Origin: Ktedonobacterales bacterium
GTDB lineage: Bacteria; Chloroflexota; Ktedonobacteria; Ktedonobacterales; Ktedonobacteraceae
NCBI GenBank assembly: GCA_027451525.1
Contig: DAIDJF010000007.1
Span: 48,664-112,663 of the forward strand
Length of the DNA: 64,000 bases
Reading direction: 5' to 3'
Position numbers and translations under genes: made by a program. Positions 39,845 through 48,132 of this stretch are shown piece by piece (within the stretch, counting starts at the first letter, position 1; each line of letters begins with the position of its first letter). The notes under the pieces were generated by a model. The model had not been told where the DNA came from, did not search any database, and saw only the letters and a list, made by a program, of their open reading frames with translations.

Positions 39845-40070
39845 AACGTCCTTTCACTCTATACAAGGTATCGCTTCACATTCCCTTGCGCACACCCACA
39901 TAATACCAGCAGTAGTCTGTTTTTATCCTTGACTGTTTATAGGCCAAGAGCATACCATGAGCATTCTGACACTCTCCTGCACAAAATGCAAGAGATTCTT
40001 CTTTCTACCAGCCCACTTGCGCCCCGGGCCTTGCGGCACGAAACGTAGAGGCGGTCTGTCCAGAAGCGTT

Positions 40071-40739
40071 TTACACCGCGAGGGTGCCAGTTCCCGCATG
40101 CCCTGCGGTACTGCCTACTGCCTTCACACGCGCTGCTTGGGGTAGCACCACGCGCGCCTCCTGCCCTGGCTGTTCGTCTGCGCTCTGTTGCACCTGACAG
40201 GCAGAAGGTGGAAGTGCCACATCCTCCCCTGGGTGCAATTGTGTTGCCAGTGCCGCCTGTTCGCTCTGTGTGATCTCGGTACGCAAGCCCACCTCTGCAC
40301 GGGTGATATCGTCTGGCGTGGCGGTCTGGTAGGTACGGGCATCCTACCCCCTATAAAGGCACGATTGACCACGAAGAGGTTTGCACCGCAACACGGCCCG
40401 TTGATGGCGCGTGCTCCAATGTTGCCTGCTGATCCACTGGTGACCGCTTGGCTGCTCCTGTCGCCTGCCCAAAGAGCGGATAGGAGGCCGCTGGAACAAC
40501 CACCTCTTCCAGTAGGACCACTTGGACCCCGTTGGGACTACCTGACTGGTGGAGGAAGCGTTGTAGAACGTGAGGATGCCCTGTGCTTGCTGTGCCTGCT
40601 GTCTGACCATGCCCGTTGTGGGCACGCGCTGTTGTTGCTGCATGCTCACGGTCGTGGGATAGTCATAGTGCTCCCTTCCTTGACAGGATAAGGCTACCTG
40701 TGACCTAATGGCTACAGGAGCTGTGTACAACGGTTCCAA
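40071..40739 (-). pseudogene. Decayed gene with several frameshifts, baseplate-J-like
   Basis: Reading the reverse strand, one protein can be followed only by changing frame several times: first GILTFYNASSTSQVV, then VVVPAASYPLFGQATGAA, then SAGNIGARAINGPCCGANLF and NRAFIGG, then DARTYQTATPDDITRAEVG through EITQSEQAALATQL to the stop at 40071-40073. The succession 'FYNA ... AGNIxAxxINGPCC ... F.GG.DARTYQT...DI' is one I recall from baseplate-J/gp47-like proteins in Ktedonobacteria. At least three frameshifts are needed, so it is not functional. The opposite-strand open frame at 40188-40691 is only its mirror. Confidence 0.65.
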
Positions 40740-40744
40740 AAGAG

Positions 40745-40785
40745 AGGGACATCATCTGGCTACAATCGGAGTGATGTCCCTTTTT
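40745..40785 (+). terminator. Hairpin followed by T5
   Basis: AGGGACATCA (40745-40754) pairs with TGATGTCCCT (40772-40781), followed by TTTTT in the plus direction. No intact plus-strand gene precedes it, so it may be a leftover from a lost gene or protect the island from read-through. Confidence 0.6.
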
Positions 40786-40944
40786 CGCGTCTACAAAGAC
40801 GGATTGTAATCAAAGAATACCTTCATTAACCTTATTTTGTCAAGCCCTATCGTATTCTATCAAGAGAAATAACTTATTGACCGATGAACGCTGAAGAAGT
40901 ATAATCTTGTAAAATTAGAATTTGATAAAACGGATGGTGTTACT

Positions 40945-41151
40945 TTGGCTGACGAGTTGCTGACAATTGACCAAGTAGCCTCTGAGCTACAACTTCATCC
41001 AGATACGATACGGCGATATATCCGCGAGAAGAAGCTGAAAGCGATACGGATAGCGCCGACCGCACTTCGCGTCCGGCGGTCTGATCTGGATCAGTTTATT
41101 GCTAAACGGGAAACAGGTACGGAAGAGGAGTCAACAGACGAGGAACCATAG
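40945..41151 (+). CDS. Excisionase-type helix-turn-helix DNA-binding protein
   Basis: A 68-residue protein starting at TTG with GGATGG upstream. LLTIDQVASELQLHPDTIRRYIREKKLKAIRI is the winged HTH of the MerR/excisionase ('helix-turn-helix 17') family, followed by the wing RVRRSDLDQFIA and an acidic tail. Such small proteins regulate or excise mobile elements, or act as simple repressors. It begins the plus-strand part of the accessory island, about 190 bases before the AbiTii gene, and could control the defence genes; that is inference. Confidence 0.82.
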   Translation: MADELLTIDQVASELQLHPDTIRRYIREKKLKAIRIAPTALRVRRSDLDQFIAKRETGTEEESTDEEP

Positions 41152-41337
41152 TATCGTTGGTTCTCGTGTTCCCGATTAGCAATAGTGGCTGTTGTATTGC
41201 CACAGATAAACTAGATGCGTGGATGGAACGGGGAACAATGATCAACGGATAATGGGTTGGGTAATACAGAAAGTTGGACACTTATAGGTCCATTTCAAAG
41301 GAAGATGGATGGATGCTCAATACTATTGGAGGGTTTG

Positions 41338-42353
41338 ATGGCAACTACGACGAAACCTGAAATTAGCGAGCTACTGCATCGTATCAATGAGGGCGCGACG
41401 GACAGTAGCACACCTTTAGAAGAGGTAATGCGCCTTTGCCTACGCCTGGGTTGGCTACTCGGTAACAAGGAGTTAAGCGATTGGGCAAAAGCCGAAGCAG
41501 GTGGATATACACCCAAAGTTAGCTTGCCAGATTACCGAATTTTTGAGACCCAAGTACAAGGTACTTTTTGGGGTCGTTTGGCAGTAGCATTAAAAATGCC
41601 TCCATTCCTCAGTTTGTTATAGACGATTCACACCGAGACTCGTTATTTAAGGTTTATATAAAACAGTCGGTTGGTGAATTGGAACAGCTTGCACGTGGGC
41701 GGGCGGATACTAATCGTGTAACTATTCCTTGGTCGGGGGATACAATCCTATACTACCAGCAGAAAGAAATCTATCAGGGCTATGCATTAAGTGATGCTTG
41801 GCAAGTGATAACGACAACCGCCATTCTTGGCATTCTGGAGGACATACGAACCAGGGTACTCGAGTTTGTAATAACAATTGAAAAGGAGTTAGATATCGAT
41901 ATTATGGACTACGATAACAATAAAAAGCCTTTGGAGACACCTGCCCAGGAGAAAGTCGGCCAGAGATTTAACATGACTATCAACGGTGGTAGCAATTTTG
42001 CTTTTGGCAACAGCGGCACCCCCAATCAGCAAACCATTCAGGTCCAGCCTGGTGATTTGCAGAGTCTCAAAGAGAAGCTCGCTCAACTCGGCGTACCGGA
42101 TGTGTTTCTCAACGACCTCGATACGGCACTGGCTAAAGACGCCGATTCTGAAGAGCAGCCAGGTCTATACGTCAATAGCTGGTTCGGACGGCTAATGAGC
42201 AAGGTAGGTACCGGAGCAGTGCAGCTTGCCGGAACTGCGGCGACAACGGTGGTTATGGCAGAGGTGAGGAGATTCTTGGGGTTACCCCCGTTTGAGCATA
42301 ACCCTACGCCCCGACATCAGATGGACCCAGAACCAACAGCATACGCACAGTAA
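41338..42353 (+). pseudogene. AbiTii-family abortive-infection gene, broken by a one-base frameshift
   Basis: Starts at ATG 41338 with TTGGAGGG five bases before it. Residues up to about 87 (LLHRINEGATDSSTPLEEVM, LCLRLGWLLGNKELSDWAKAE, LPDYRIFETQVQGTFWG) are the AbiTii N-terminal domain. At an A5 run (41592-41596) the frame must shift by -1; with one more A the text reads ALKNASIPQF and continues in the second frame through VYIKQSVGELEQLARG to the end at 42353, including a central Gly/Asn-rich MTINGGSNFAFGN segment and a C-terminal membrane-like helix VQLAGTAATTVVMAEV. The unshifted product stops at 41622. AbiTii proteins are phage-defence proteins by homology; mechanism is not settled. Confidence 0.75.
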
Positions 42354-42481
42354 GCAGAAACAACAAAGGAGCGACAAAGAGTTTCTTCTCTAGGCTTTCT
42401 GTTGTCTATGATAACACTAACTGGTCTGATCTATAATAAAGGGTAAGTACCATGATAAAATTACATGCGAGGTAGACACTC

Positions 42482-43750
42482 ATGCCAGTAAAGATATTTT
42501 TCTGCTATGCACATGAAGACAAAAAAATGCTGGTTCAACTACAAAAACATCTGAAACCATTGGAAAGGCATGGTTATATTGAGACATGGTACGACCAAGA
42601 TATTAGTGCAGGTAACGAGTGGGAACCAGAAATAGTTAAACGCCTGCGTGAGGCCCAGATCATTCTCCTTCTTATCAGCGCGGACTTCATTAACTCTGAA
42701 TACTGTTACGACAAAGAGATGAAATGGGCGTTGGAGCGGCATCGACGAGGTGAGGCGCGTGTTATTCCTATTATACTGCGCGATGTAGTCTGGAAGTACG
42801 GACTGTTTAGCATACTTCAAGCACTACCTTCTGAAGCCAAACCGGTATATAAATGGACTCGTAGAGATGAGGCGTATGTAGACATAACAGAAGGTATCGC
42901 CAGAGTTATTGAGGAACTGTCTCTCGCTTCGCTACTAAAATCCGCTGTACAAAGCCCTCAAGTGCCATCATCTCAGCATAAGCGTGCTTTGCTCATATTA
43001 ACAGGTAATGCCGTATTACCAGACATTCGCTTATTGCTTCACTACCGACCGCAGTTAGTCTGTATTGTGACGCCGCACGGTTGGCTGTATCAGAGGACAT
43101 ATATTGATATCGTACAAGCAATACCTTCGTGTGAGATTAAGATAGAGCCTTCAGTCAACCCTCATGACATCGATGAATGTCTGCAAGCCTGTCTCAATAG
43201 TTATCGTCCCTATGCTCACGAAGAATTCGAATGGATAATGACATTTGCTTCGGCAAATAAAGTGATGGCACTAGCAGGGTATGAGTTCGCAAAACAGAAC
43301 AAGATACGTTTCTGGCATATAAATCCAGAAGAGGAACATATAATCACGCAGGGAACGCATATGGCAGTCGATATACGAAAATTCTTCCGTCCAACTGTTT
43401 CCGAATATCTGGATGATTATGGCTATACCATTGGCAATTTTAAATCAGCAGAAAAAGCATATCGGGCAAATGAAGAAAAATGGAGCGGCATTGTAAGTGA
43501 GATAATACATTCATCCGACGCTCTGATCTGGCTTTCCTTGTTCACGGATAAAAGCAAAAACGAGCCCATAGTAATTCCTGCAACACTGAGTGTAACGTCC
43601 CTACTCTCATCTCTCGTCACAACGGAGGCGTTGAAAATAATCCTGGAGCACGATGATGGTACGGTAACTTGTTGCTTTCCATCCGCTGATTGCGCTCGTT
43701 TTTTCGGCTCAGGAGAGTGGTTAATGCTACAGGCTTTTTGTTACCAGTGA
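42482..43750 (+). CDS. TIR domain fused to Card1-like CARF domain
   Basis: A 422-residue protein. Residues 1-140 are a bacterial TIR domain: VKIFFCYAHEDKKML, ETWYDQDISAGNEWEPEI (BB loop), IILLLISADFINSEYCYDKEM with the predicted catalytic Glu79, and RVIPIILRDVVW. Such TIR domains cleave NAD. Residues 167-315 resemble the CARF domain of Card1/DUF1887 proteins: ALLILTGNAVLPDIRLLL, then WIMTFASANKVMALAGYEFA, in the place of the ligand-binding N-x-T-G-G-T-K-x-M loop, IRFWHINPEEEHI, and the following SEYLDDYGYTIGN. The end (SGEWLMLQAF) corresponds to the entry of the Card1 nuclease domain, then a stop. GAGGT precedes the ATG. Likely a cyclic-nucleotide-gated NADase; that is inference, and the GGTK loop is altered. 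Confidence 0.78.
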   Translation: MPVKIFFCYAHEDKKMLVQLQKHLKPLERHGYIETWYDQDISAGNEWEPEIVKRLREAQIILLLISADFINSEYCYDKEMKWALERHRRGEARVIPIILRDVVWKYGLFSILQALPSEAKPVYKWTRRDEAYVDITEGIARVIEELSLASLLKSAVQSPQVPSSQHKRALLILTGNAVLPDIRLLLHYRPQLVCIVTPHGWLYQRTYIDIVQAIPSCEIKIEPSVNPHDIDECLQACLNSYRPYAHEEFEWIMTFASANKVMALAGYEFAKQNKIRFWHINPEEEHIITQGTHMAVDIRKFFRPTVSEYLDDYGYTIGNFKSAEKAYRANEEKWSGIVSEIIHSSDALIWLSLFTDKSKNEPIVIPATLSVTSLLSSLVTTEALKIILEHDDGTVTCCFPSADCARFFGSGEWLMLQAFCYQ

Positions 43751-43892
43751 CGTGAGTGTCCCGACCCCTCCACAATCATTTTATGAGCATGCGCAATTAC
43801 GAAATGTAGCCGTAGCTACCTGGGAAGATTTACCGAACATTAGATATATTATACAGCGGACATTACGCACTCCCACATATATACGAGCATAA
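43725..43892 (+). pseudogene. Out-of-frame relic of a Card1-type nuclease C-terminus
   Basis: In the +1 frame relative to the TIR-CARF gene, overlapping its last eight codons, 55 codons are open to a TAA at 43890-43892. They encode RLFVTSDVSVPTPPQSFYEH, then AQLRNVAVATWEDLPNIRYI and an Arg-rich end. 'A-x-L-R-N-V-A-V ... E-D-L-P' is like the final strand-helix of PD-(D/E)XK nuclease domains in Card1-like proteins. The nuclease core with its Asp/Glu/Lys residues is absent, so an internal deletion of the third domain is the simplest reading. Confidence 0.45.
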
Positions 43893-43993
43893 TGCATTTT
43901 TTAGATAGGGGTTTGTTCGCTGCAAGTTATAACCTCTTACCTATTAGATGGGAAGATGGACACCGAGCACCCACAACGCTCGTAAGGGCTTGA

Positions 43994-44098
43994 AGTATCA
44001 TTTACTTAGATGGTAATTTGATCGGGTGTGCCTTGCAAAGAAACGGTGCATTCATCCCCCCGCATGAATGACGTGGGCTTTCCCGCGCCCGCTTAGTA
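43994..44098 (+). mobile_element. 3' end of an IS200/IS605-type element (tnpB tail and right end)
   Basis: After a stop at 43991-43993 the frame reads SIIYLDGNLIGCALQRNG then AFIPPHE and TGA (44069-44071). 'L-x-x-V/D-G-x-L-I-G ... Q-R-N-G-A-F-I-P-P-H-E' is the typical C-terminus of TnpB/OrfB, where the gene end overlaps the element's right-end hairpin; here CCCCCCGCATGAATGACGTGGG with GCTTTC following. Only the tail remains; the rest of tnpB and tnpA are absent. It marks the right border of the accessory island. Confidence 0.6.
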
Positions 44099-44113
44099 AC
44101 AGGAAACATATGC

Positions 44114-44755
44114 ATGAGTGAAGAGAGCGAAGAGATACAGCAGCTTCCCGATGAAGAGGAGATAGAAGAACTCACAGAAGAGGGACGTGCGCGCAGGAGA
44201 CAGGAATTAGCAGAAGCGCGCGCAAAACGTAATAAAAGCAAGGGGCTGGTAATCGTCAATACGGGCGATGGCAAAGGCAAAACGACAGCAGCATTGGGTA
44301 TCCTCATGCGCGCATGGGGTCAGCAGATGCGCGTTGTTATGCTGCAATTTCTTAAAGCACAGACAGGCAATTGGGGCGAAATTCGCGCGGCACAGCGCAT
44401 GGGCGTCGAGATCATTCCGCTGGGACAGGGCTTTACCTGGACAAGCGAAAACCTCGCCCAGGACCGCGCTTTAGCGCAAAGTTGTTGGCAACAGTGTCGT
44501 GAACGCATTGAGAGCGGAAATTACGATGTCGTCATCATGGATGAGCTTACCTATGCCCTCAATTATCGCTGGCTCGATATCGAAGAGGTACTGGACGTAC
44601 TGCGCAAACGCGACCCGATGCAGCATATCATCATCACGGGACGTGACGCGCCAGAGGCGTTGATCGAATTTGCCGACCTCGTGACCGAGATGCGCGAGAT
44701 CAAACATCCGTACAAAGCACAAGGTATTCTAGCCCAGAAGGGCATTGAGTTTTAA
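44114..44755 (+). CDS. cobO: Cob(I)yrinic acid a,c-diamide adenosyltransferase CobO/BtuR
   Basis: A 213-residue ATP-dependent corrinoid adenosyltransferase. After a charged N-terminal extension of about 42 residues (EE-, RR- and AEAR-rich) comes the P-loop [15 protein letters not shown], then VVMLQFLKA, the [17 protein letters not shown] strand-loop and [21 protein letters not shown]. This is the CobO/CobP type rather than PduO. It transfers adenosyl from ATP to the cobalt. It overlaps the frame of the next gene by ten bases before that gene's true start. Together with cobS and cobC it belongs to a cobalamin locus split by the island. Confidence 0.95.
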
Positions 44756-45826: not shown

Positions 45827-46522
45827 ATGAAAACATCACTTTCTGAATTCTTATACGGGGTCAGGGACGAGATACCAATGCTGTTGGGCGCGCTCCCTTT
45901 CGGTATGATCTATGGCGTGGCAGCGATCAGCGCGGGCATTCCGGCGAGCATAGCACAAGCGATGTCGAGCATTGTCTTTGCGGGTTCGGCACAATTCGTG
46001 ATGGTTCAGCTTATCGCCTCTGGTACGCCCGCGCTTGTCGTTATTCTGACAGGCTTTATCGTCAATATTCGCCACATGCTTTACAGTGCATCCATATCGC
46101 CCCACACCCGCATGCTACACCCACTGTGGAAGTGGCTGCTGGCATATCTTTTAACAGATGAGGCTTACGGGGTAAGCATCTTGCACTACCAGAAACCAGG
46201 AGACGACAAACAGAAACGCTGGTATTTTCTAGGTGGTGGGCTGGCATTGTGGACCACATGGCAACTCAGTACGGCTGCGGGTATTTTCCTGGGAGGGCAT
46301 ATCCCTGCCAATTGGTCACTGGACTTTGCATCGACACTCACGTTTATCGCTCTCGTCGTACCCGCGCTCAAGGATCGTATAAGTACATCTGCGGCACTGA
46401 CTGCCGCGCTGACCGCTCTGCTTGTCATTGCTTTGCCACTGAAACTAGGAATAGCACTCGCGGCACTAGTTGGCATAGCAGTCGGCCTCACTCTAGAGGT
46501 AAAGAAAAACACAGCGATATAG
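45827..46522 (+). CDS. azlC: AzlC-family branched-chain amino-acid exporter, large subunit
   Basis: A 231-residue membrane protein with about seven hydrophobic segments. The family opening PMLLGALPFGMIYGVAAISAGIP, FAGSAQFVMVQLIASGTPA, and RHMLYSASISPHTR are characteristic of AzlC/YgaZ, the large part of a two-component exporter of branched-chain amino acids or analogues. The small partner azlD follows after 13 bases. Start at 45827 lacks a strong ribosome site (TTAGGAAC). Probably cotranscribed with the upstream dehydrogenase. Confidence 0.92.
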   Translation: MKTSLSEFLYGVRDEIPMLLGALPFGMIYGVAAISAGIPASIAQAMSSIVFAGSAQFVMVQLIASGTPALVVILTGFIVNIRHMLYSASISPHTRMLHPLWKWLLAYLLTDEAYGVSILHYQKPGDDKQKRWYFLGGGLALWTTWQLSTAAGIFLGGHIPANWSLDFASTLTFIALVVPALKDRISTSAALTAALTALLVIALPLKLGIALAALVGIAVGLTLEVKKNTAI

Positions 46523-46535
46523 CAAGGAGACGCAT

Positions 46536-46868
46536 ATGTCACAGGGATGGCTTTGGGCAATCATCATCATTGTCGGACTACTGACCTTTAGTCTTCGCCT
46601 GTCCTTCATCGTGTTCATGGGCAAGATGCAGATCGCCCCCATAGCGCAACGATCTTTGCGTTTCGTGCCAATTGCTGTGCTTTCAGCACTGATCGCGCCC
46701 GCGCTCTTCTTCCCTAACGGCTCACTAGAGCTATCATTGAGCAATGCCCGTCTCATAGCAGGACTTCTTGCGATCCTGGTCGCCTGGCGCACAAAAAACG
46801 TCCTGCTAACCATAGTGAGCGGTATGGCGTGCTTGCTTATCTTACAAGTCTTTGTGTTACCTCATTAG
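46536..46868 (+). CDS. azlD: AzlD-domain small subunit of branched-chain amino-acid exporter
   Basis: A 110-residue protein with four hydrophobic helices: WLWAIIIIVGLLTFSLRLSF, FVPIAVLSALIAPALFF, ARLIAGLLAILVAW and the final SGMACLLILQVFVLP. The R-x-x-F...F-V-P-x-A-V-L-x-A pattern is AzlD/YgaH. Preceded by CAAGGAGACGCAT. Works with AzlC as an exporter. It converges on the beta-propeller lipoprotein gene. Confidence 0.9.
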   Translation: MSQGWLWAIIIIVGLLTFSLRLSFIVFMGKMQIAPIAQRSLRFVPIAVLSALIAPALFFPNGSLELSLSNARLIAGLLAILVAWRTKNVLLTIVSGMACLLILQVFVLPH

Positions 46869-46935
46869 CTATACTGGTTTCTCCTGCCCAAGTGAGCCGA
46901 AGCTCTTCTCGTGTGAATTGGGGTCTCCAGGTTTC

Positions 46936-48132
46936 TTAGTTCGTCCAGACTGGATGACTTGCCGCGTCAACGCCGCCAGTCGTCACTTGGACAGGGTTGC
47001 CCTGCAGACTATATTTGCCCGTCTTGGCGTCATAGCTCACATTCGCAATCCAGAGATCGAAGGTATTGTTGACATCAGTATAATAAGCAATCTGCTTCCC
47101 ATCAGGAGACCAGACAGGCTCAGAGAGATAGGTACTGGTTAGTAGATGAGAAGAAGCTGTCGCATAGGCATGCAATGCCAGCTGCTCCGTCGCGGGATCA
47201 TTGGGCGTTTGTGTAATTGTCGCAGGTGGAACAGGCATCACATCCAGTTCCATCTGGTTGCTCGCGTTGTCCGTCTTGATAAAAGCCAGGGCATTGCCAT
47301 CAGGCGAGAACGCAGGGTCAGTCACGATACTGCTGGTTGGAGTAATCGCAATAGAGGGATCATAGCCACCGCCCGGCGAACCAGGATAATATACGCCAGG
47401 ATTATTGCTAATGGCATTAGGGTCTTCCATATACAACTGAACCACCTGCTGTGTCTGGCTCGTTGTGTCATAGGTATAGTGCGTATAGATGATCTGGTTG
47501 GGGTGTTTGGGGCGATAGCTCGCATTTTGATCACCACCATCACCAAAGGTTGCATAGGCCACGGCAGTTGGCGTTCCTGTGGGCTGGGCAAATGGAACCG
47601 CAAACACCTGCAAATCAAGCAAAGGAGCGTCTTGACCAGTCTGCTGATACCAGTTCTCTTTTTGCAGATCGCTTAAAAAGAGTAGCGTTGCGCTATCCTG
47701 CGACCAGGCAGGCTGCACATACCAGGCATACGTATTGTGAATAAAGCCACTATTATTATAGAAATGCCCATTACCACTGCGTAGGACACGGACCTTTCCA
47801 CCAGTAGCAGGGATAACACAGAGATCAGAGTAATTTTGGTATTTTTTGACAAAGGCTACCCATTTCCCATTAGGGGAGACGGCAGGGTCCATCACGTTAC
47901 CCGTCTTGACCAACGCTTGTGTGGTCCCATCTGCGCCATTGAGAACGTAGAGATTGCCATTGACGGTCAGATAGAATTTACCATTAAAGGTCCCCTCGTG
48001 TACTGTCACTGACTGGCCGTTAACATTGGTCGCAAACGGTTGCGCGTTTGAGCCAAAGCAACTCTGAACACCGAGGGCAACAAAGATAAGCCCAAGCAGC
48101 GTCCTCCAGGAGAACAGGCGACGTTTGCGCAT
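46936..48132 (-). CDS. Secreted TolB-like beta-propeller (PD40/WD40) protein
   Basis: A 398-residue protein with an N-terminal export signal: basic MRKRRLFSWR, a hydrophobic run and GVQSC, a weak lipobox. The rest is made of PD40-type propeller blades recognised by repeated A-x-S-P-(N/D)-G-K-x-(V/I)-A-(F/Y) units: DPAVSPNGKWVAFVK, DPAFSPDGNALAFIK, EPVWSPDGKQIAYYT and others. Such proteins bind partners or ligands at the outer membrane face and are often annotated TolB- or LpqB-like; no enzymatic motif. Located 18 bases after the LCP gene on the same strand, so a joint role at the wall is possible. Confidence 0.85.
   Translation of the reverse strand: MRKRRLFSWRTLLGLIFVALGVQSCFGSNAQPFATNVNGQSVTVHEGTFNGKFYLTVNGNLYVLNGADGTTQALVKTGNVMDPAVSPNGKWVAFVKKYQNYSDLCVIPATGGKVRVLRSGNGHFYNNSGFIHNTYAWYVQPAWSQDSATLLFLSDLQKENWYQQTGQDAPLLDLQVFAVPFAQPTGTPTAVAYATFGDGGDQNASYRPKHPNQIIYTHYTYDTTSQTQQVVQLYMEDPNAISNNPGVYYPGSPGGGYDPSIAITPTSSIVTDPAFSPDGNALAFIKTDNASNQMELDVMPVPPATITQTPNDPATEQLALHAYATASSHLLTSTYLSEPVWSPDGKQIAYYTDVNNTFDLWIANVSYDAKTGKYSLQGNPVQVTTGGVDAASHPVWTN

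Follow-up and report, generated by a model that had tools for sequence, protein, structure and literature searches.

We analysed a window of 64 kb (positions 48664-112663 of contig C7) from the genome of a Ktedonobacterales bacterium, a 5.9-Mb draft metagenome-assembled genome (MAG) in 199 contigs with 8.5% estimated contamination. The plus strand carries a gene for a 422-amino-acid (aa) protein that joins a TIR domain to a CARF sensor domain and breaks off where a nuclease core has been deleted, with the end of the nuclease domain lying downstream in the +1 frame. An earlier interpretation made from the letters alone, here called the sequence-only reading, had proposed this anatomy, and domains, deletion and tail were confirmed with high confidence. 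The features of the gene are listed below by window position.

42482..43750, plus strand: open reading frame (ORF) of 422 aa with TIR, CARF4 and the accessory module of the lost nuclease (ORF list, Pfam, PADLOC)
42482..42931, plus strand: TIR domain, residues 1-150 (PF13676, E 5.1e-17; phmmer to Cat1 9mud, E 4.7e-10)
42980..43411, plus strand: CARF domain of Can2/Card1 (CARF4) type, residues 167-310, with K260 retained and H279 at the equivalent of Tyr-118
43412..43729, plus strand: accessory helix/beta-hairpin module N-terminal to the PD-(D/E)XK core, residues 311-416, retained
43729..43731, plus strand: deletion junction, a net loss of about 218 bp relative to intact relatives, with a frame shift
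43731..43892, plus strand: last 53 codons of the nuclease domain, left orphaned in the +1 frame and ending in a stop

In a Pfam scan of the window ORF, PF13676 (TIR_2) matched residues 5-101; in PADLOC, a ThsB-type TIR model (Thoeris) matched residues 4-149. The TIR domain of the sequence-only reading was thus recovered, with its catalytic glutamate corrected to E79. The PADLOC model CARF4--CARF_PDDEXK matched residues 177-415 (E 1.1e-10), giving the protein the CARF4-type sensor domain of Can2/Card1 and agreeing with the earlier assignment to the Card1/DUF1887 kind. Structure prediction with fold comparison, set beforehand as the check that could refute the reading of residues 160-330, returned a predicted CARF fold, and the model was confident even without the nuclease core. 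One element of the proposed anatomy needed correction: instead of just the first residues of the nuclease domain, its accessory module (311-416) remains. Can2 carries an extra motif of four helices around two strands (PMC7969007).

Compared with its intact relative P0002, the window copy lacks residues 417-489. The CTA of L416 ends at 43729 and the AGG of R490 begins at 43731, a net loss of 219-1 = 218 nt, a figure derived from the protein comparison with P0002 and not from the relatives' DNA. Beyond the junction the +1 frame reads RLFVTSDVSVPTPPQSFYEHAQLRNVAVATWEDLPNIRYIIQRTLRTPTYIRA and reaches its stop at 43892. Queried with an intact relative's CARF-nuclease part, the genome gave body and tail as two separate matches (60% and 65% identity), which, with the junction, bears out an internal deletion of the nuclease core that left the tail out of frame. 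The lost stretch includes D447 and E460-C461-K462 (P0002 numbering), residues present in 6/6 relatives, and the PD-(D/E)XK active site (D, E, K) that marks Can2/Card1 is therefore deleted in the window copy. We considered programmed frameshifting as a rescue of the tail and discarded it, since the rescued product would still be without the nuclease core.

The deletion is recent relative to the split from P0002, because the out-of-frame tail (40/53 identical, 75%) is conserved about as well as the translated CARF domain (104/144) and the accessory module (72/106), and less well than the TIR domain (131/150). In 24 relative-rate comparisons the window branch had no significantly higher number of changes for any domain (lowest p 0.12). 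Neither tail conservation nor these tests show selection for the truncated form, and the deletion is too recent for a working truncated enzyme and a fresh pseudogene to be separated.

Searching 5.8 billion proteins with residues 155-422, by a method that reaches only sequences sharing short exact words, yielded 670 candidates, of which seven had E <= 0.001: the window protein, five of 540-542 aa, and a 359-aa fragment (P0006) that starts inside the CARF domain, its N-terminus cut off, and retains the nuclease. The same seven came back when the CARF-nuclease part of P0005 served as query. Pfam detected TIR in 4/4 full-length relatives scanned (P0002, P0003, P0005, P0007) and Card1_endonuc above cut-off in three of the four, P0002 falling just below (25.4 vs 26.4 bits), as did the fragment P0006 (23.1 bits). 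For P0004 a precomputed domain list has TIR and no Card1_endonuc; its D and E-C-K residues align nonetheless. All three parts are thus carried by the five relatives of 540-542 aa, as expected of the TIR-CARF-nuclease ancestor that the sequence-only reading had postulated. By this comparison, the window gene likely descended from such a protein through internal loss of the nuclease core. No other member of the seven TIR-fused proteins lacks the nuclease.

The three-part build appears rare. A wider profile search, which scored only the 7997 candidates sharing most words, gave 76 CARF4-nuclease proteins, in which the TIR-fused group comprised the same seven only, six of them with TIR. The CARF-nuclease part was present in 14/400 Chloroflexota genomes, the window's own included; at the 14 loci outside this genome the open frames run to 189-440 aa (fragments in some cases) and could not hold all three parts. 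Of 47 genomes in the class, the window's own alone gave a match across both TIR and CARF. No relative was confirmed among 428 pattern stretches in viral contigs, and in named genome contigs 1/82 pattern stretches matched, in the TIR part only. The nearest TIRs within the class sit in open frames of many lengths, suggesting that within this family TIR is a mobile module. A tree was built from 67 of the 84 aligned rows; in it the TIR-fused proteins formed one clade (support 100/100) on a stem branch of 0.86, grouping with four stand-alone Can2-like nucleases of Ktedonobacteraceae (98/94; genomes G026, G031, G032 and G035). The nearest of these is G032 (94/71), whose stand-alone ORF is 395 aa, the open frame coming out at 860 aa and 398 aa in two genome searches. 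Mean identity among the six relatives (15 pairs) was 72% in the CARF domain and 54% in the accessory module.

We then compared the TIR domain with that of Cat1. Residues D38, S72 and E79 align with the Cat1 active-site residues D33, S68 and E74 and are identical in the five full-length relatives. In Cat1 these residues line the NADase site, and alanine mutants are defective in cells, D33A being only partly so in vitro (PMC12162218). The aligned residues suggest that the window TIR may likewise cleave nicotinamide adenine dinucleotide (NAD). Cat1 matched the family profile on TIR only (residues 5-100); the window sensor matches Can2. Cat1 was absent among the Foldseek and VIA-align matches listed for the CARF fold, which excludes nothing.

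The CARF pocket is remodelled across the whole TIR-fused clade. Can1 and Can2 share four contacts to cyclic tetra-adenylate (cA4): Ser19, Thr42, Lys99 and Tyr118 (PMC7969007). We mapped the pocket columns by aligning seven TIR-fused and 77 stand-alone rows, the latter partly redundant (P0055 was dropped). The contact Tyr is present in 75/77 stand-alone and 0/7 TIR-fused rows (L in four, and H, N and Q). The contact Lys is retained in 7/7 TIR-fused rows and occurs in 33/77 stand-alone rows, where Thr is commoner (41). Around these, position 177 is R or Q in 76/77 stand-alone and A, T or S in 6/6 TIR-fused rows; position 198 is S or T in 77/77 and P in 7/7, respectively; position 282 is P in 6/7 TIR-fused rows; and Trp278 is retained in 7/7. 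At the Ser19 position the window copy has Gly, as do most stand-alone rows, and at the Thr42 position it has T, where its relatives have S, Q, V or A. The GGTK ligand loop, described from the letters as altered, is indeed so, and the alteration belongs to this clade-wide remodelling: the site reads SATK in the six relatives and SANK in the window copy alone, leaving N259 as its only peculiarity. The contact Tyr is missing from two stand-alone rows, one of them G032 (Val), which lies within a type III-B locus (L037:8918-10105). Loss of the Tyr alone therefore does not show a new ligand, and it may have come before the fusion and without leaving CRISPR, judging from these alignments.

What could supply a ligand had been posed as a puzzle, with no CRISPR gene in 64 kb. 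That holds for the window; the genome partly solves it. Checking it for a type III Cas10 identified one on contig C30 (L035) together with a Csm3-like protein, a Csx10-type Cas5, Csm2, Csx19 and a double-CARF gene, making up a III-D locus in which one of the ten proteins scanned had no match. This Cas10 has the cyclase motif GGDD at residue 342. DNA adjoining the locus matches the window in tetranucleotide profile (0.89-0.92 with three window pieces, which score 0.49-0.77 against the loci of other genomes of the family). Both Cas10 palm matches of the genome are on C30 and the window gene is on C7, neither in nor beside a type III locus. CRISPR-like direct repeats were not found in the window at the settings used, and Rfam gave no matches in the window, L035 or L076. 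No SMODS cyclase was found in the genome, other cyclase families not having been searched; type III is therefore the only cyclic-nucleotide source identified, and a cyclic oligonucleotide-based antiphage signalling system (CBASS) was set aside as ligand source within the same limit. Production of cyclic oligoadenylates by the cell is therefore likely, subject to the draft's estimated contamination.

Several further observations concern CARF genes in this and related genomes. The III-D operon on C30 ends in a 573-aa gene (L035:248-1969) with two CARF halves of Csx14/NE0113 type, which, by eye, occupies the place of the Can2-like gene and csx15 in the operon of G028. A csx15 gene on contig C105 (L076:9622-9924) loses its 5' part where the contig stops. 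The draft may miss a stand-alone Can2 gene, because it would adjoin this csx15, as in six Ktedonobacteraceae loci where csx15 lies directly downstream of a Can2-like gene; a second Can2-type nuclease gave no PF09002 match in the genome, and its gene may be missing beyond the end of C105. Csx15 binds cA4 (PMC13148439). A Cas10 palm match lies within 10 kb of 8/14 stand-alone loci, the gene of G032 being 4.5 kb from Cas10; the loci without one are those of G026 (none in the genome), G035 (about 225 kb off), G339, G193, G295 and G123. The loci of G035 (L036) and G026 (L038) hold a Can2-like gene and csx15 with no Cas10 near and, by eye, a CARF gene resembling that of L037, and thus show type III signalling modules separate from the effector complex. 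In G026, a 156-aa ORF (L038:4767-5237) that matches TIR (E 1.1e-12) is some 3 kb away from the Can2-like nuclease and csx15, so that TIR and CARF4 are neighbours, unfused, in a genome without a Cas10 palm match.

The gene is preceded by a second defence gene and lies in a segment that a same-genus genome (G021) lacks at the matching site:

41257..42353, plus strand: AbiTii-domain gene split over two frames (PF18864 positions 1-63 in ORF 41257-41622 and 70-181 in ORF 41568-42353; PADLOC AbiTii)
39845..44710, no strand: 4.87-kb segment absent at the matching site of G021, holding AbiTii, the TIR-CARF gene and most of CobO

CobO lies downstream of the TIR-CARF gene. The G021 site reads CobC, then 125 bp, then a match to the window from 44711 onward (the end of CobO and a dehydrogenase gene), and short pieces of about 39966-40125 recur on two other G021 contigs. 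The segment may have been gained in the window genome or lost in G021. By tetranucleotide profile, of 61 pieces the two that begin at 40001 and 41001 resemble the window least (0.63 and 0.68); the piece from 42001, which holds the TIR-CARF gene, scores 0.77, a value matched or undercut elsewhere (0.74-0.75 at 46001-48001).

We give a probability of roughly 0.5 to the reading that the window protein is an NAD-cleaving enzyme gated by cyclic oligoadenylate from the cell's own type III complex, derived from an effector with two outputs. It starts from the domain content, the three-part relatives, the missing core with its orphan tail, the predicted CARF fold and the GGDD Cas10. The type III complex (Cas10) of the same cell would supply the cyclic oligoadenylate; by analogy with Can2/Card1 and Cat1, a pair of CARF domains would bind it and dimerise; and the bound dimer would switch on the TIR domain, causing NAD cleavage, as the TIR family and the aligned active-site residues suggest. 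For the intact relatives the prediction is that a single CARF dimer with bound ligand sets off NAD loss as well as DNA/RNA cutting. In the window copy NAD loss is the only output that could remain, if it is active at all.

A number of observations weigh against this reading. The Cat1 active-site stretch S7-H8-N9-N10 aligns with C8-Y9-A10-H11 and is not kept. The window sensor (Gly175, Thr197, Lys260, His279) has two of the four Can1/Can2 contacts, and VC1899, an orphan with a changed pocket, gives no response to cA4 (PMC7969007), which calls for caution in assuming cA4 for the window CARF. The window gene has no CRISPR gene in its vicinity; among the four stand-alone proteins that the tree places with the TIR clade, those of G031 and G032 are in type III loci and those of G026 and G035 are not; and, given the contamination, C30 and C105 might be foreign. 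Finally, the AbiTii gene beside it is a second broken defence gene, and with so recent a deletion the truncated form could be a dying gene.

That last point leads to a possible, if tentative, explanation in which the very recent deletion broke a three-part effector and left the 422-aa ORF as an inert or unstable leftover. The near-equal conservation of the untranslated tail and the CARF domain, which leaves no time for decay, fits such a fresh pseudogene, as do the frame-broken AbiTii gene adjoining it and the failure of the other six to provide a second nuclease-less member (P0006 is cut N-terminally and keeps its nuclease). The frame nevertheless remains open across TIR and CARF with the three aligned TIR residues intact, the window branch shows no significant rate excess in the 24 comparisons, and the predicted CARF model is confident despite the missing core. 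Draft MAG errors could in principle account for both the deletion and the AbiTii frame break, and a gene present once, on one of the draft's 199 contigs, with two broken genes adjacent, would suit them. We consider such an artefact very improbable: base-call errors do not look like the loss of 218 bp with the tail left intact, and the same contig carries ORFs of 213-507 aa nearby.

Other alternatives concern what the sensor reads. The TIR-fused clade may read a nucleotide other than cA4, from type III or another cyclase, a rather unlikely proposal that overlaps our preferred one in that ring size is open there. It draws on the replaced Tyr, the changes at positions 177, 198 and 282, the long stem branch, and the finding that Can2-family Cdn1 binds cA3, cA4 and cA6 (PMC12825302). 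On the other side, Lys260 (a phosphate contact) and Trp278 are retained throughout the clade and type III is the sole cyclic-nucleotide source identified, no SMODS cyclase having been found; the proposal is further weakened because the nearest stand-alone protein, that of G032, lacks the Tyr and sits in a type III-B locus close to Cas10. A fuller version, in which the remodelled CARF4 would read a signal other than plain cA4 and fire a TIR NADase together with a Can2-type nuclease, the window version becoming a pure NADase after nuclease loss, we judge unlikely. It is improbable that the CARF domain retains only its fold and dimer while the TIR is triggered by a partner protein, NAD level or a phage product. 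The remodelled pocket, the placement of the gene in a segment missing from G021 and the precedent of VC1899 (PMC7969007) agree with a sensor cast adrift in this manner; the better conservation of CARF (72%) than of the accessory module (54%) argues for retained function.

The new elements are the three-part TIR-CARF-nuclease build and the remodelled pocket. We found no description of a TIR-CARF-nuclease protein in the literature searched, as far as the papers were available, and an earlier listing in the 2020 CARF classification is possible. For CRISPR-linked CARF/SAVED proteins, TIR is named in a figure legend (PMC10910872). The CARF effectors listed in PMC9704534 each have a single kind of output; exceptions are double proteins, such as CorA/Csm6-2 fusions (PMC11229360) and, from a PDB title among the fold matches, a Csx1-Crn2 fusion. 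If our preferred reading of a cyclic-oligoadenylate-gated enzyme from a two-output line is true, one sensor would couple NAD loss to nucleic-acid cutting, raising the question of whether one ligand can drive two chemically different weapons. A natural copy without the nuclease core would be a ready-made single-output comparison, and the clade-wide Tyr change with the Lys retained makes the ligand directly testable. What gives the finding its weight is less the broken window copy than the rare relatives with all three parts and their remodelled sensor.

The closest known systems each share part of this design. Like the window protein, Cat1 has an N-terminal TIR with a catalytic Glu (E74, aligned with window E79) and a C-terminal CARF, and it cleaves NAD with cA4 (PMC12162218), so the TIR-first order, which the sequence-only reading had found unusual, is already known. 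Cat1 differs in size (258 residues, its homologues size-filtered to 240-350, PMC12162218; 422 aa in the window and 540-542 aa in the intact relatives), and the window CARF is of Can2 type, followed by a nuclease-derived module. TIR-SAVED proteins of CBASS and some type III loci also fuse TIR to a cyclic-nucleotide sensor; the window sensor is CARF by profile and fold, not SAVED, and the SAVED_TIR model of PADLOC covers residues 3-101 only, which is the TIR part. VC1899, an orphan DUF1887 protein, still has the nuclease residues, and its contact Lys is replaced by Arg (PMC7969007), whereas the window protein retains the Lys, has lost the nuclease core and has gained a TIR. From Can2, Card1 and Cdn1, the type III CARF4-PD-(D/E)XK nucleases, the TIR-fused proteins differ in the changed pocket Tyr and neighbouring positions, and the window protein in its added N-terminal TIR, its missing nuclease core and its place outside a CRISPR locus.
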